Positions 30,815 through 37,319 of a DNA stretch of 64,000 bases are shown piece after piece. Source of the DNA: Actinomycetes bacterium (GTDB lineage: Bacteria > Actinomycetota > Actinomycetes > Streptosporangiales > Streptosporangiaceae). The stretch's first letter is position 1, and each line of letters starts with the position of its first letter. The notes under the pieces are model-generated. The model made no database searches. It saw nothing but the letters and a program-made list of their open reading frames with translations, and was not told the DNA's origin. The translations under genes and the position numbers were made by a program. The stretch covers positions 62,001 through 126,000 of the forward strand of contig JAJYTD010000008.1 of the NCBI GenBank assembly GCA_021793235.1, written 5' to 3'.

Positions 30815-32854
30815 CTAGTACTGCTTCGATCTCCGGTCGAGTTCTTGGAGATAGGCGTTGTAGGCGTCCATATCGGCGTCGTCGGAGCCGCCCCGCCTGC
30901 TGTGCCGTTCGCGGCGCCGCTCGGTCCGCTCCTCATCGCGCGACCACTGCACGGACAGGGCGACCATCACGAGCAGGGTGGGCACTTCACCGACCGCCCA
31001 GGCGATACCGCCGCCCATGTACTGGTCTTCGGCGAGCCCCTCGTTCCACGGCACGTCGAACTGCCCGTAGTACTCCATGGCCAGCGGGGCTGACTGCATC
31101 ATGATGGTGATGCCGAAGAACGCGTGCACTCCCATGGCCGCCAGCAGCAGCACGATCCGCAGCAGGTAGGGCATCTTGCGCGGCGCCGGGTCCACCCCCA
31201 CGATGATCCAGTAGAAGAGGAAGCCCGTGAGCAGGAAGTGGATGTTCATGAAGATGTGGCCGAGGTGGTCGTTCATGAGCACCCCGAACATCGGGGTGAA
31301 GTAGAGCGCGTAGGGGCTGAGCACGAACAGCGGCACGGCCACGGCCGGATGCGTCACGAACCGGGAGTAGCGGCTCTGCAGGAGGGCGTTGAGCCATTCC
31401 CGCGGTCCCCGGTCGCCGCGCTGTTCGGCGGGTTTGAACGCGCGCAGAGCCAGAGTCACGGGAGCGCCGAGGACCAGGAGAATGGGGATCAGCATCGACA
31501 GCAGCATGTGCTGGAGCATGTGGGTGCTGAAGAGCAGCATCGCGTAGGTACCGAAACCGCTGAGCAGGACCGCGACGATGCAGACCAGCCCGGCAACCCA
31601 GGCGACGCTGCGGCCCCAGGGCCAGGTGTCGCCGCGTCGCCTCAGCCGGACGACGCCGGCGGCGTACAACCCGCCCATGACCACCACGGCCATGATGAAG
31701 AAGAGGTCGGGCCGCCACAGCGTGAGCAGCGTCGTCGCGCTCATCGGCGGGGGCATGGGAAAGCCCAGCAGCAGGGTGACCCGGTCGATGGTGCCCTCGG
31801 CCGGCGGAGGCGGTGCGGTCCGGCTCAACGCGGCGGACAGCCCCATGACGGTGGCCATGATCGCGATCTCTACTCCGGCGAGGCGGATGAACAGGCTGCG
31901 CCCGCCGGCTTCGGCGATCCGGGGGATGGTCGAGCGACGGTGCACCCAGCCGACGAATCCCAATGCGGCGAAGAGCACGATCTTGACCAGCATGATCAGG
32001 CCGTAGGAGGTGGTGAACAGTTCCAGCACCCCGTAGAGGCGGCTGATGGCGCTGGCGGTGCCGCCGATGGCGACGCCGATGTAGGCCCACAGTGCGATGC
32101 GGCTGAACCGCCGGGCCGCCACGGGGGCGTGCTCGCCCGTGGAGCGCAGGCCGTGGAAGGTGACGGCGACCAGCCCGCCCACCCACACCGAGACCGCGAT
32201 CACGTGCAGGGCGAGGCCGGTGATGGCGAGTTCGTGGTTTCCCGATGAGGCCGAATGCCCGGTGAGAGCGGGAGGCACCAGCCCGGCGAAAGCCACGGCC
32301 AGCAGCGCGAAGGCGCCGGTGGCCGAATCGGTGGTGCGGCCGAACAGCGCGACCGCGGTGGCCAGCAGGATCACGACCATCAGTCCGATGCCTTGCGCGA
32401 CCGACCCGGCGTAGCTGGTGAGCTGGTTGCCCACGACCTCGGAAAGCCGCAGCCCGAACAGGTCGGAGAGCTGGAAGACCAGCTTCGCCGCCGCGGCGAC
32501 GGCCCAGGCCAGGCCGGTCCAGGAGGCGGCCCGGACATAGGACAGGGCCTGCTTGCCGAGGACGCCCTTGTCCGAGGGAAGCAGGAAAGTAGCGAGCAGC
32601 AGCAGACCGATCGTGAGGACCGCGGTAACGTCCACCGCCACCGTGGCCACGGGCAGGCCCCATCGTGTCAGCGGTCCGGCATCGGGCAGGCCGGGGATGA
32701 CCCGGGCGGTCACCGTTCCTCCGGCGACCAGGGCGATGATCAGCGCGATCAGACACGCGGCAGTGGAGGCGACGGCGATCACGATCGCCGTGTCGCTACC
32801 GTTGTGCGGGCGGGTCCGGGTCTGGCTGCTATCAGGGGGAGCCACGCGTGTCAC
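30815..32854 (-). CDS. CopD-CtaG fusion: copper transport and cytochrome oxidase assembly
   Basis: This 679-residue polytopic membrane protein is a fusion. Residues 20-330 form a CopD-like domain of about nine helices (GHSASSGNHELAITGLALHVIAVSVWVGGL carries its conserved region). Residues 375-650 form a CtaG/caa3-type domain of about seven helices with AMLLFSTHMLQHMLLS, DHLGHIFMNIHFLLTGFLFYWI and GVHAFFGITIMMQ, whose histidines are expected copper ligands. The fusion is common in actinobacteria and is linked to copper delivery to the aa3 oxidase. The start is GTG. A 40-residue membrane protein gene lies just upstream on the same strand. Confidence 0.9.
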   Translation of the reverse strand: MTRVAPPDSSQTRTRPHNGSDTAIVIAVASTAACLIALIIALVAGGTVTARVIPGLPDAGPLTRWGLPVATVAVDVTAVLTIGLLLLATFLLPSDKGVLGKQALSYVRAASWTGLAWAVAAAAKLVFQLSDLFGLRLSEVVGNQLTSYAGSVAQGIGLMVVILLATAVALFGRTTDSATGAFALLAVAFAGLVPPALTGHSASSGNHELAITGLALHVIAVSVWVGGLVAVTFHGLRSTGEHAPVAARRFSRIALWAYIGVAIGGTASAISRLYGVLELFTTSYGLIMLVKIVLFAALGFVGWVHRRSTIPRIAEAGGRSLFIRLAGVEIAIMATVMGLSAALSRTAPPPPAEGTIDRVTLLLGFPMPPPMSATTLLTLWRPDLFFIMAVVVMGGLYAAGVVRLRRRGDTWPWGRSVAWVAGLVCIVAVLLSGFGTYAMLLFSTHMLQHMLLSMLIPILLVLGAPVTLALRAFKPAEQRGDRGPREWLNALLQSRYSRFVTHPAVAVPLFVLSPYALYFTPMFGVLMNDHLGHIFMNIHFLLTGFLFYWIIVGVDPAPRKMPYLLRIVLLLAAMGVHAFFGITIMMQSAPLAMEYYGQFDVPWNEGLAEDQYMGGGIAWAVGEVPTLLVMVALSVQWSRDEERTERRRERHSRRGGSDDADMDAYNAYLQELDRRSKQY

Positions 32855-33002: not shown

Positions 33003-33434
33003 CGCGGACACCACCTCAGAGCCAGGGTAAACCGTCGACTACAGCATGTCGGACATACCGGTCGCAACGACCAGACTCAGGACACGCCGCCGTCCCCGGA
33101 GTCGGCGGACCCGCACCGAGTCGTCTGCGGCCGCGGGGATCCTCCACCGAAATCCGGACTCCAGCCGCGCCCAGATGCCATCCTGGGCGGAACCGCCGTC
33201 CTCTTCCCGAAAGTCGCCCGGATATCGGCCAGATATTCACTTAATACCGGATAAGCACTGTTTCCACAGGCGGCTCCGGCGATAAAGAACGACGATAGTG
33301 GTTCAGGAACCCGTTCGCGGTACAGTCTGCAAACCGAAACGCCGGGCCACGAGCCCAGCCCGATCTATTTCCATAATTCCAACGGGGCCCACATCGCACA
33401 CCAACACGGCCATTTGACTATGAAGGGGATGCCG
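33003..33434. other. Intergenic region before the allantoinase-like gene
   Basis: About 430 bases carry no supported gene. The right part (33230-33420) is less GC-rich, and GATAGT near 33293 could be a -10 box for the allantoinase-like gene. The AAGGGG ribosome site of that gene lies at 33423-33428. Confidence 0.4.
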
Positions 33435-34745
33435 ATGCCCCAATTCGATACCGTCATCCGTTCGCAGCGCGTCGTCACCCAGGAGGGGGTGGTACCGGCC
33501 GCGGTCGGCATCCGCAGTGGGCGCGTTACCGCTGTCTGCTCCTATGATGCTCCGCTGTGCAGCGACCGGGAGACCGACCTGGGCACCGTGGCCCTCCTCC
33601 CCGGCGGCATCGACCTGGACGTCACCGTCCAGCCGCCCGGCCGACCGCTCCGGGAAGGGTATGCGGCGACCGACACGGCCGCGCTCCGCGGCGGGGTGAC
33701 GACCATGGTCATCACCCCGGCCCCGGCAGACCCCGCGATCACCCGGCTCGTGGCGCTGGACACCCATGCGACGGCCGCCGCCAAGACCACCGCGCACGTT
33801 GTGTTCCTCGGTGGCATCACCGCCCGCAGTACACCCGCCGACCTGGCCGATCTACGGGCGGCGGGCGCGGCGGGCTTCCACTGCTCGCTTTCCGGCGAAG
33901 GACCCGGCGCCTTTGTGGACGACACCCGGTTGCACAAGGCGATGGCGGAGGCGGCCGCCATGGAGGTACCGCTGTTCGTCCACGCCGAGGACGCGCGTGA
34001 ACTGGTCACGCCGGCGCGGGCGGGCAACAGCGCGTTCCTGGCGTCGCGGCCGCCCCGCGCGGAGCGACGCGGACTGGAGCGGGTCGTCGCCGCGGCACGG
34101 GCGACGGGGGCCCGCACGCACGTCTCGCCCTTCACGGCGGCCGAGTGCGCGGCGGTTCTGGCCGCGGCACGCGCCATCGGGGTCCCCATCACCGCCCACA
34201 CCTGTCCGCACTACCTGTGCCTGCCCGCCGAGCACGTCCCTGACGATTCTCCGGCCCACCGCTGCCGTCCGCCGCTCCGTTCCGGCGCCAACCGGGACGC
34301 CCTGTGGCGGGCCCTGCTGTCGACGGAGGACTCCGCCATCACCACGATCGGATCGGGGCACCGGCCGGGCACCGGTGTCGCAGCGCTCCCCTGGACACTT
34401 CCGGCTCTGTGGACGGCGGCCGCCCGACGCGGCCGCGGCCTGGCCGACCTGGTCCGCTGGACCGCTGCCGCCCCGGCGGAGCTGATACGTCTGCACGCCA
34501 AAGGCCGTATCGCCTCCGGGTACGACGCCGACCTGGTGGCTTTCGACACCGCCGCGCAGCAGACGGTCCCCGCCGACGATCCGGGCCCCTACGCCGGCAG
34601 GAGCCTCAACGGCCGGATCACGCGTACCTGGGTCGGCGGCCGTGACGCGTTCCCCCCCGAAGAGGGCTCTTACGCGCTGTCAGAACGGCGCGAAATCCCC
34701 ATTCATGCCGGCGATGGCCGACCCGGTGCGCAACAGTGGGGGTGA
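33435..34745 (+). CDS. Allantoinase/dihydroorotase-like protein lacking the metal site
   Basis: This 436-residue protein aligns throughout with allantoinase of the amidohydrolase superfamily: VIRSQRVVTQEG, LLPGGID, GGVTTMV, FVHAED, TCPHYL, RPPLRSGANRDALW and KGRIASGYDADLV. Five of the six expected metal ligands are changed. The HxH motif reads D62-V-T64, the carboxylated lysine position is H149 in GAAGFHCSL, the histidine of the HVLHLS segment is P232, and the aspartate of the SDHxP segment is G308. Only H183 remains. Catalysis of the usual kind seems impossible, while the fold-defining segments persist. The start ATG at 33435 has AAGGGG six bases upstream. A second apparently inactive enzyme gene follows on the same strand. 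Confidence 0.85.
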   Translation: MPQFDTVIRSQRVVTQEGVVPAAVGIRSGRVTAVCSYDAPLCSDRETDLGTVALLPGGIDLDVTVQPPGRPLREGYAATDTAALRGGVTTMVITPAPADPAITRLVALDTHATAAAKTTAHVVFLGGITARSTPADLADLRAAGAAGFHCSLSGEGPGAFVDDTRLHKAMAEAAAMEVPLFVHAEDARELVTPARAGNSAFLASRPPRAERRGLERVVAAARATGARTHVSPFTAAECAAVLAAARAIGVPITAHTCPHYLCLPAEHVPDDSPAHRCRPPLRSGANRDALWRALLSTEDSAITTIGSGHRPGTGVAALPWTLPALWTAAARRGRGLADLVRWTAAAPAELIRLHAKGRIASGYDADLVAFDTAAQQTVPADDPGPYAGRSLNGRITRTWVGGRDAFPPEEGSYALSERREIPIHAGDGRPGAQQWG

Positions 34746-35007
34746 GAGCGATGGCGCCGAGGAGGAACCCGCGCCGACGTATCCGAGGAGCCGAGACCCG
34801 CGAGTGCCGGGTGGCCATAACGCCGGCGCCCACGGCCGCACATCGCGCACGGCCGCGGGGCACGGCCGTCCTGGCTCCGTGTGTCCTGGGCCGTCCGGAA
34901 CAAAGGCCGCGGCGCTGTCCAGCGTGACCGGGCCGCAGGGAGAGGATATTTTCGAGTGAAGAGGATGATCCTTCTTTCGGCCCCGGTCTTGTGGAGGCGG
35001 TGCACGC

Positions 35008-36171
35008 GTGTCACGCACGGAACCGGCAACGTTCACGCGGGTCGCGAGCATCGACGCGACCCTGGTGCGGCTACCGCTGGTCCATCCCAGGTCGCGCGGT
35101 GCCGCCGCCGACCCGCGCCCCCGTTTCGCCCGGCACGCCCTGGTCCGTGTGGCCGACGACCGCGGAACCAGCGGCTGGGGGGAGATCCCGCTGGCCGAGC
35201 CGACCCGATGGCGGGCGCTCGTGGAGTGTTTCGCGCCTGCCCTGCTCCGGCACTCCTGGCACCGCCCCACCGAGGCCGCCGGGGCCTGGGCCCACCTTCC
35301 CCGGTGCCCCTCTGTGGCGGCCGCGCTGGACACCGCCTGCTGGGACCTGTGGAGCAGGCAGCGCGGTGCCCCCTTGTCCCATGCCCTGGGCGGGGCCCGC
35401 ACCGCCATCACCGCGGGCGTCACCGTGGGGCGCCAGCCGTCCCTCGACTCGCTGGTGCGGGAGGTCAACCGGCAGGTCGGCAGCGGCTTCCGGCGTATCC
35501 GGCTGGAGATCGGCCCGGGATGGGACATCGAGGTCGTGCGCGCCGTCCAGGACAGCTACCCGTTCCTGGTCCTCCAGGTGGACGCGCGCGGACGCTACAC
35601 CGAGGACCCCGCCGATCTGGCGGCGCTGCGCGCGCTCGACGACTACGGCCTGCTCGCCATCGAGCAGCCCTTTCCCGACAGCGATCTGGCGGCGCACGCC
35701 CGGCTGTGCCGTGATCTGCATACGCCGATCGCCCTGAGCACGTCGATCGACTCGCTGGAGACGCTCGACGAGGCCATCCGCCTGGAGGCGGCCAGGTCGC
35801 TCAACCTGCGCGCGGTGCCCTTGGGCGGGCTGACACCGGCACGCCGCGCCCACGACCGTGCGGCCGACGCGGGCTGGAACGTGTGGTGCGGATCAGACAC
35901 CGAATCGGGTGTCGGCCGCGCCGCCGCTGTCGCGCTGGCTTCCCTTCCGGGTATCACACTGCCCAGCGAAATGCCCGGTGCGGGCGGGTACTTCGCCCGT
36001 GACCTGGTACGGCCGCCGGTTCGCGCGCACGACGGCATCGTCCCGGTCCCGCTGCTCAAGCCGGGGCTGGGCCACGATATCGACCGGAAGACGCTGCGGG
36101 ACCTGGCGGTCGACTCCGTCTCCCTCTCCCAGCAGGACCGCGGTCCGTCCCGGCCGGAGCATTCGCCCTGA
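35008..36171 (+). CDS. Enolase-superfamily protein (OSBS/NSAR-like) lacking catalytic residues
   Basis: This 387-residue protein aligns well with o-succinylbenzoate synthase/N-succinylamino acid racemase: SVAAALDTACWDLW, GPGWDIEVVRAV, VLQVDA, LLAIEQPFPDSDL, NVWCGSDTESGVGRAAAVALASLP. The KxK motif (expected KLKI) reads R165-L-E167, the second catalytic lysine is R268, and the metal ligand in LDES is S244 (LSTS). Metal ligands D192 and E219 remain. The acid-base pair is therefore gone, so the protein should not catalyse the usual proton transfer. The start is GTG at 35008 with GGAGG ten bases upstream. It follows the allantoinase-like gene by 262 bases. Confidence 0.85.
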   Translation: MSRTEPATFTRVASIDATLVRLPLVHPRSRGAAADPRPRFARHALVRVADDRGTSGWGEIPLAEPTRWRALVECFAPALLRHSWHRPTEAAGAWAHLPRCPSVAAALDTACWDLWSRQRGAPLSHALGGARTAITAGVTVGRQPSLDSLVREVNRQVGSGFRRIRLEIGPGWDIEVVRAVQDSYPFLVLQVDARGRYTEDPADLAALRALDDYGLLAIEQPFPDSDLAAHARLCRDLHTPIALSTSIDSLETLDEAIRLEAARSLNLRAVPLGGLTPARRAHDRAADAGWNVWCGSDTESGVGRAAAVALASLPGITLPSEMPGAGGYFARDLVRPPVRAHDGIVPVPLLKPGLGHDIDRKTLRDLAVDSVSLSQQDRGPSRPEHSP

Positions 36172-36357
36172 CACGGATCCCGCGAGCGCCCCTACACGTC
36201 CGGGGGCGGTCTCTTGGCGCGGGTCGAGGGGCTTCTGCCAACGGATACCGCCGCGCCGGGCCGCGATGTGGCCGACCCCGGTCGGCGCCTTCTCTTGCCG
36301 CTGCGGCCGCCTTTCGGGAATGATCATGGTCCCGGGCAGTCGGCAGGGAGGGCAGTG

Positions 36358-36729
36358 TTGGCGCTGTACGAGGTGCACGCCCGCAAATGGCAGAACGGGT
36401 GGGAACTGCAGATCGGAGACGTGGGCGTGACCTGGTCGCCGACACTCCGCGGCGCTGTCGCGCGTGCCCGCGAGCACATCAGCGCGCACCTGCCGGCCGA
36501 GGAGCACGACGTTGAAATACGGGTCCTGCCCACGGTCGGCGACGATCTCGACCGGGTGGCTCAGGAGACCCGAACGGCCCTGGAGGAGGCGGAGGAGGCA
36601 CTGCGCGTCGCCTCGGCCAAGACCCGGCAGGCCGTCTATCGGCTGACCAACGCGGGGCTCAGTACCGATGACGTCTCCCACCTGCTGGGGCTCTCCCCTG
36701 ACCAGCTGCACGAACTCGTTGCCGACTGA
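36358..36729 (+). CDS. HicB-like protein with C-terminal helix-turn-helix
   Basis: This roughly 123-residue protein starts with a HicB-like beta-alpha-beta half (LYEVHARKWQNGWELQIGDVGVTWSPTLRGA). A charged helical stretch of about 40 residues follows (DDLDRVAQETRTALEEAEEAL), and a small helix-turn-helix (RLTNAGLSTDDVSHLLGLSPDQL) closes the protein. Such proteins are common orphan regulators in actinobacteria. No HicA toxin gene is beside it. The start is TTG at 36358 (AGGGAGGG five bases upstream) or GTG at 36355. It may be the regulator of the two upstream genes, but that is inference from order. Confidence 0.75.
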   Translation: MALYEVHARKWQNGWELQIGDVGVTWSPTLRGAVARAREHISAHLPAEEHDVEIRVLPTVGDDLDRVAQETRTALEEAEEALRVASAKTRQAVYRLTNAGLSTDDVSHLLGLSPDQLHELVAD

Positions 36730-36863: not shown

Positions 36864-37319
36864 ATGCGGACATTCGCCGATGTCTTTGAACTGGTCGCCG
36901 CCGAGGGCGAGCACCTGGGCTACAGCGACTGGCTCACCATCACCCAGGACCGCATCGACCGGTTCGCCGACGCCACTGGCGACCACCAGTGGATCCACGT
37001 GGACCGGGAGAAGGCAGCGGCGGGGCCGTTCGGCACCACGATCGCGCACGGATACCTCTCCCTCTCCCTCCTCCCCCATTTCGGGCCCCAGATCTACACG
37101 CTGGAGAAGCCCCCGACGATGGGGGTCAACTACGGCCTGAACCGGGTCCGCTTCCTGCAGCCGGTCACCGAGGGCTCGCGGGTGCGCGGCGGTATCGAAC
37201 TCACCGAGGCCAAAGAGACCCCCAAGGGCCGGCTGCTGACGATGCAGCACCAGGTGGACATCGAGGGCGAAGAGCGCGCGGCCCTGGTCGCCGAAGCGCT
37301 CGTGCTGCTCGTCCCCTGA
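36864..37319 (+). CDS. MaoC-family enoyl hydratase
   Basis: This 151-residue single hot-dog-fold protein hydrates enoyl-CoA esters. The hydratase signature FADATGDHQWIHVD at residues 34-47 contains the catalytic Asp and His, and GPFGTTIAHGYLSLSLLP follows. It is about the normal length for an (R)-specific hydratase and acts in fatty acyl-CoA metabolism. The ATG at 36864 follows GAGGAG. An operator-like repeat lies upstream. It converges on the hypothetical protein gene 22 bases away. Confidence 0.92.
   Translation: MRTFADVFELVAAEGEHLGYSDWLTITQDRIDRFADATGDHQWIHVDREKAAAGPFGTTIAHGYLSLSLLPHFGPQIYTLEKPPTMGVNYGLNRVRFLQPVTEGSRVRGGIELTEAKETPKGRLLTMQHQVDIEGEERAALVAEALVLLVP

Follow-up and report, generated by a model that had tools for sequence, protein, structure and literature searches.

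The features described here lie within a contiguous stretch of 64,000 nucleotides (the window) and are listed in Table 1. An allantoinase-like gene is flanked by a divergently oriented gene for a CopD/CtaG-like membrane protein on one side, and by genes for an enolase-superfamily (MenC-like) protein and a further protein on the other. The names of these neighbours rest on NCBIfam; the last one, with a weak PaaZ match, is presumably MaoC-like. No gene of ureide or purine catabolism was found beside the allantoinase-like gene, as its neighbours are the CtaG-like gene, alanine dehydrogenase (ald) in relatives, the MenC-like gene and the MaoC-like gene. A small protein encoded at 36268-36729 (+) has no NCBIfam match; it was also found close to the locus in L207 and in 12 of the 66 relatives.

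Table 1. Features of the locus; positions are those of the window, and residue numbers those of the allantoinase-like protein.
Feature	Position	Strand	Evidence
CopD/CtaG-like membrane protein, divergent neighbour	30815..32854	-	NCBIfam; 64/66 loci
Allantoinase-like protein, predicted pseudoenzyme, 436 aa	33435..34745	+	stop-free frame, TIGR03178 match, model, fold search
Residues 62-64, former HxH metal ligands, now D-V-T	33618..33626	+	H in 0/64 scorable clade rows, 35/35 active rows
Residue 149, former carboxylated lysine, now H	33879..33881	+	K in 0/65 clade rows, 35/35 active rows
Residue 183, sole kept metal-ligand histidine (VHAED)	33981..33983	+	H in 65/65 clade rows, 35/35 active rows
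Helix, residues 205-226, RPPRAERRGLERV..., tightened in the clade, candidate interface	34047..34112	+	entropy comparison
Residue 232, former beta-6 metal histidine, now P	34128..34130	+	H in 0/65 clade rows (P in 62), 35/35 active rows
Residue 308, former SDH aspartate, now G, followed by loop deletion	34356..34358	+	G in 65/65 clade rows; D in 35/35 active rows
Gap where relatives carry alanine dehydrogenase (ald)	34746..35007	.	ald in 64/66 loci
Enolase-superfamily protein (NSAR/OSBS-like), syntenic, catalytic lysines lost	35008..36171	+	TIGR01928 menC; alignment
MaoC-like protein, conserved downstream neighbour	36864..37319	+	weak PaaZ match; 55/66 loci

The frame of the allantoinase-like gene is open over its entire length, and the motifs TCPHYL, FVHAED and GGVTTMV are present, both as the earlier note on this DNA had claimed. 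The GC content at codon position 3 was 0.85 (calculated for the slightly longer ORF 33420-34745). A shadow ORF was rejected because two stops interrupt the displayed frame on the reverse strand of the gene and the orthologues keep the forward frame. The best family match was allantoinase AllB (TIGR03178, E 1.5e-82), with a score of 277.8 bits that does not reach the curated cut-off of 357.85. The closest solved structures are the allantoinases of E. coli and Bacillus (3e74, 8hfd, and 3hm7). Structure prediction gave five models with pLDDT values from 80.5 to 52.3. In the one with pLDDT 80.5 (pTM 0.84), the amidohydrolase TIM barrel and beta-sandwich are present, and the top fold match was allantoinase 3hm7 (E 2e-32, TM 0.82).

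The metal site was then located by alignment. Residues D62, T64, H149, and P232 fall on the ligand columns when the protein is aligned pairwise with E. coli AllB (3e74, 8hfd). This alignment is gapped at SDH; in a MAFFT alignment, G308 is in the column of the SDH aspartate. All these residues are where the earlier note had placed them. Its statement that every ligand was lost holds for five of the six, but not for the sixth, as H183 of VHAED is retained. In addition, and unnoticed in the earlier note, the protein has a deletion of ~13 to 16 residues directly downstream of SDH, at the site of a loop that ends in AWGG in most active relatives. With such a site, the protein would be unable to hold a two-metal centre, and it would probably not use the standard mechanism to hydrolyze dihydroorotate, allantoin, or hydantoins. 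Among the intact enzymes, the allantoinase of genome G199 (L170, 6216-7406) has all six metal ligands, yet it too is without the loop after SDH.

Relatives of the protein were collected in a first survey of 60 genomes, including the window's own, and in a second survey, in which six peptide patterns were searched against the GTDB species collection. Those with 53-70% identity were named Nocardiopsis, Streptomonospora, Allosalinactinospora, or unclassified Nocardiopsaceae bacterium, with one record of Glycomyces fuscus. The remaining peptide-pattern matches, from Bacillus and Azospirillum, had only 25-28% identity. Within the GTDB family, matches with E <= 1e-90 were found in 68 of 297 genomes and 17 genera; removal of the intact G199 left a clade of 67 genomes in 16 genera, with the window's genome among them. 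Of the 66 other genomes, 64 were read (G135 is not among them, and G255 was read as L041 only, an identity inferred from coordinates), which together with the window gave 65 clade rows. Two loci were not among these rows: L129 from G199, which is intact and is represented by the active row L170, and the broken L113 from G006. Residues 62 and 64 could be scored in 64 rows, as L149 is unplaceable there; the identity of this gap row was inferred from its match, which starts at residue 94. The five ligands H62, H64, K149, H232, and D308 were absent from all clade rows (0/65) and present in all 35 intact relatives. These 35 active rows are the next-best matches of the same class, of which 22, plus G199, had been seen to be intact beforehand; in the independent part of this control, chosen before inspection, 12/12 keep the ligands. 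Thus, the substitutions are common to the orthologues, a check that the earlier note had proposed. A recent lesion or sequencing error is therefore rejected as their origin.

Six of the family matches with E <= 1e-90 report a stop codon, and all ORFs in the orthologue alignment are at least 394 aa long. The orthologue frames read intact except in G006 and perhaps in G319 (L149), which has a divergent start. The G006 orthologue (L113/L052) is split over two frames and represents a broken copy in one species. In G085 (L207), which groups within the Nocardiopsaceae rows in the enolase tree, the gene is absent from the locus. The gene is thus not indispensable, as it is missing in one genome and broken in another. 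A search of 394 genomes of the class with the clade profile found no ligand-depleted member outside the GTDB family. Scores of at least 575 bits were obtained for 21 rows, including the window's genome, all in family f1. G206, in which the gene is split over two contigs, scored 377 and 361 bits, and the broken G006 copy 284 bits. The top score of any other match was 368 bits. The eight loci that ranked next (L198-L205) were intact.

In the phylogeny, the 65 rows group as a single clade with a long stem branch (SH-aLRT 100). The clade nests among actinobacterial allantoinases, in agreement with common descent. At the corresponding locus of G082, where ald and an enolase-like gene are neighbours, a relative with 42% identity is encoded (L208, 4580-5968). 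This L208 protein has also lost the metal site, but with other residues (VDADV, GFVAH, HLLRVS, and SAGHAP), and the loop after SDH is still there. It is sister to the clade with support of 100/99, and the two together are sister to four intact allantoinases, including that of G199, with support of 92/87, which is under the tool's star threshold. L208 is an intermediate of the decay; in the simplest reading, the metal centre would have been lost first and the loop later. The G082 relative did not reach E <= 1e-90 in the family search, and similar intermediates could be missed elsewhere.

The gene is under purifying selection. The Nei-Gojobori dN/dS, another check from the earlier note, had a median of 0.25 (range 0.14-0.42, 22 close pairs), which is well below 1. 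The medians of the neighbours were 0.19 for the enolase-like gene (18 pairs), 0.16 for ald (22), 0.29 for the CtaG-like gene (22), and 0.19 for the MaoC-like gene (17). The allantoinase-like gene is therefore inside the range of its neighbours (0.16-0.29), and evolves faster than ald.

The allantoinase-like gene also keeps its surroundings. The order and strand of the CtaG-like, allantoinase-like, and MenC-like genes were held in 59/59 long loci (the 60 read minus L129, with the broken copy L113 included), and ald lies between them in 58/59. No ald copy was found in a search of the window's own genome, although such an empty answer is weak alone. An ald operon as the explanation for the gene is weakened, because the window's genome is without ald and yet the gene has been retained.

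The gene was also compared with the occurrence of allantoinases that score over the cut-off. An allantoinase over the cut-off was found in 13 of the 20 genomes examined, and the other seven, including the window's own, were without one; six of these seven hold the ligand-depleted gene intact, and in G006 it is broken. The gene thus occurs independently of allantoinase. Loss of the allantoin pathway as a general cause is rejected, as 13/20 genomes pair a cut-off-level allantoinase with the ligand-depleted gene.

The enolase-superfamily protein downstream scored 193.8 bits against TIGR01928 (menC), slightly under the cut-off of 200.65. Its model had a pLDDT of only 71.7, and the fold search returned N-acylamino acid racemases with 32-34% identity. 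The protein shares the enolase-superfamily fold with N-succinylamino acid racemase/o-succinylbenzoate synthase (NSAR/OSBS), but differs in the loss of the catalytic lysines: among 60 rows, the equivalent of K168 is found in none, that of K170 in one, and that of K269 in none (one gap). The equivalents of three further residues are kept in 9/60 (D245), 59/60 (E220), and 52/60 (D195). It is not the genome's only MenC, as a MenC-like ORF on contig C76 (L171) retains KVKV, IDVN, EQP, ADES, and LKVQPLGG. This ORF belongs to a separate men cluster, in which we take the ORFs to be menF-, menD-, menC-, menB-, and menE-like by their motifs (menD also by separate evidence). The enolase copy in the window is therefore surplus.

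Elsewhere in the family, 19 further enolase-like relatives were read, of which seven have the catalytic motifs and twelve do not. Three of these twelve (L207, L208, and L221) are at the same kind of locus; at the other nine, no relative of the allantoinase-like protein was found in the stretches read (4.6-14 kb). Near six of the seven outside enolase loci with listed ORFs is an ORF that is presumably GuaB-like. The midpoint-rooted enolase tree places the intact rows in one group and divides the motif-less rows among three. The window carries a depleted allantoinase next to a depleted NSAR-like enolase, two proteins of unrelated TIM-barrel superfamilies that are co-kept across Nocardiopsaceae; the locus would then encode two putative pseudoenzymes. 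It is unlikely that they cooperate, whether in a hetero-complex or as a pair of sensors for related N-acyl/N-carbamoyl amino compounds; against a joint function, the depleted enolase persists without the depleted allantoinase in G085, and the stretches read at the nine loci elsewhere showed no relative of the latter.

The present constraint was located by entropy tests that shuffle sites and ignore phylogeny. On the predicted model, the pocket-side strand ends of the clade had lower entropy than the rest of the protein (0.73 vs 1.14 bits, permutation 0.0006); in the active rows, this difference was sharper (0.45 vs 1.25 bits). The values for the opposite strand ends were 1.15 and 0.97 bits. 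For stretches, 35 clade rows were matched in diversity to the 35 active rows (mean identity 0.60 each). The most relaxed stretch in the clade is ~62-85, around the old HxH. The most tightened one is 207-226, with a mean entropy difference of -1.10 bits relative to the active rows and 0/2000 site shuffles as low. This stretch belongs to the helix 205-226, for which the active consensus, RPPEAERRAVEQV, is similar to the clade sequence RPPRAERRGLERV but variable; the helix residues are therefore not new, but became fixed. The corresponding helix in L208 is RPPRAERRAIERV. The tightening of this helix points to a putative interface. In the pocket, S151, H183, E185, H259, C262, S307, and H309 show little or no variation within the clade, whereas S151 is found in 0/35 and C262 in 1/35 active rows.

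We consider that the protein is an ancient, vertically inherited, Nocardiopsaceae-wide pseudoenzyme of the allantoinase branch, repurposed for putative partner or ligand binding, and assign this reading a probability of about 0.7. The earlier note had likewise proposed a bacterial pseudoenzyme under selection and not in decay, which agrees with the shared substitutions and the low dN/dS. In such a protein, the two-metal centre would be gone and the allantoinase fold kept. The protein would act by binding, a step that is less certain than the loss of the metal centre. A small ligand might be held in the remaining beta-4 to beta-8 half-pocket formed by the seven conserved residues, and helix 205-226 might dock a protein partner, with the protein as a scaffold or regulatory subunit. 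A binding or scaffolding role is made likelier by the tightened helix together with the conserved half-pocket. Several observations count against this reading: the partial conservation of the pocket would also fit a new catalytic site; the tightened helix residues are not new; the loop deletion, which also occurs in the intact G199 allantoinase, is not unique to the clade; a PyrC paralogue without zinc ligands is reported to be active; and the gene is missing in G085 and broken in G006.

Compared with AllB (3e74, 8hfd, 3hm7), the protein is alike in fold, in overall sequence, and in the TCPHY and VHAED motifs, but differs by the absence of five of six metal ligands and of the loop, by its score below the TIGR03178 cut-off, and by the lack of adjoining purine genes. 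The animal CRMP/DPYSL proteins are also inactive cyclic-amidohydrolase relatives with a retained pocket; CRMP-4 is reported to keep two of the six metal residues (PMC4051505). They differ in belonging to the dihydropyrimidinase branch, to animals, and to neuronal roles, and rank lower among the fold matches.

Of the other explanations, continued catalysis at a relocated site that uses one metal or none and is built from S151, H183, E185, H259, C262, S307, and H309 is unlikely. The near-invariance of these residues in the clade, and the rarity of S151 and C262 in active rows, are what such a site would show, and migrated catalytic residues are mentioned in a pseudoenzyme review (PMC10211241). 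A PyrC paralogue of P. aeruginosa without zinc ligands is reported as active (PMC2770081), so that ligand loss is strong evidence but falls short of proof. However, five ligands (the HxH pair, the lysine, the histidine of beta-6, and the aspartate) are jointly lost and the lid loop is deleted, and the retained residues are mostly common to active allantoinases and not new.

A role as a subunit of another nucleotide-metabolism enzyme is improbable. The genome has a separate PyrC (L002), in which HxH, the two other histidines, and the aspartate are all present and which directly adjoins an ORF that is presumably pyrB-like. The allantoinase-like gene is neither linked to pyrB nor replaces PyrC there, so the Pseudomonas arrangement is not directly applicable. 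That arrangement is nevertheless a close functional precedent: the PyrC'/pDHO protein of Pseudomonas is likewise a bacterial cyclic-amidohydrolase pseudoenzyme without zinc ligands, and it is reported to be needed for aspartate transcarbamoylase (ATCase) activity although inactive itself (PMC7053772). It belongs to the dihydroorotase branch and is an ATCase subunit, whereas the protein in the window belongs to the allantoinase branch. The tightened helix would be compatible with a subunit interface; the NCBIfam-named neighbours are not nucleotide genes, and the gene is intact in six of the seven genomes without a cut-off-level allantoinase. A relic drifting to loss, as the broken G006 copy and the missing G085 copy could suggest, has hardly any probability, as one ligand-depleted ancestor was followed by 16 genera with the gene at a dN/dS near 0.25, with stretches more conserved than in the active enzymes.

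Public annotation likely names this gene allantoinase or dihydroorotase, which would predict purine or pyrimidine chemistry of which the protein is probably incapable. If the protein is indeed a repurposed pseudoenzyme, it would be a bacterial example that offers dozens of orthologues, numerous active relatives for comparison, and a mapped constraint shift, and in which the transition from a metalloenzyme to a binding protein could be studied at named residues. No description of the protein or of the pair was found in the open-access literature. Another cyclic-amidohydrolase-like ORF was observed on contig C45 of G000 (L172, 7221-8738), in a row with ORFs that we take to be CoA transferase-, cyclase-, and MmgE/PrpD-like by their motifs.
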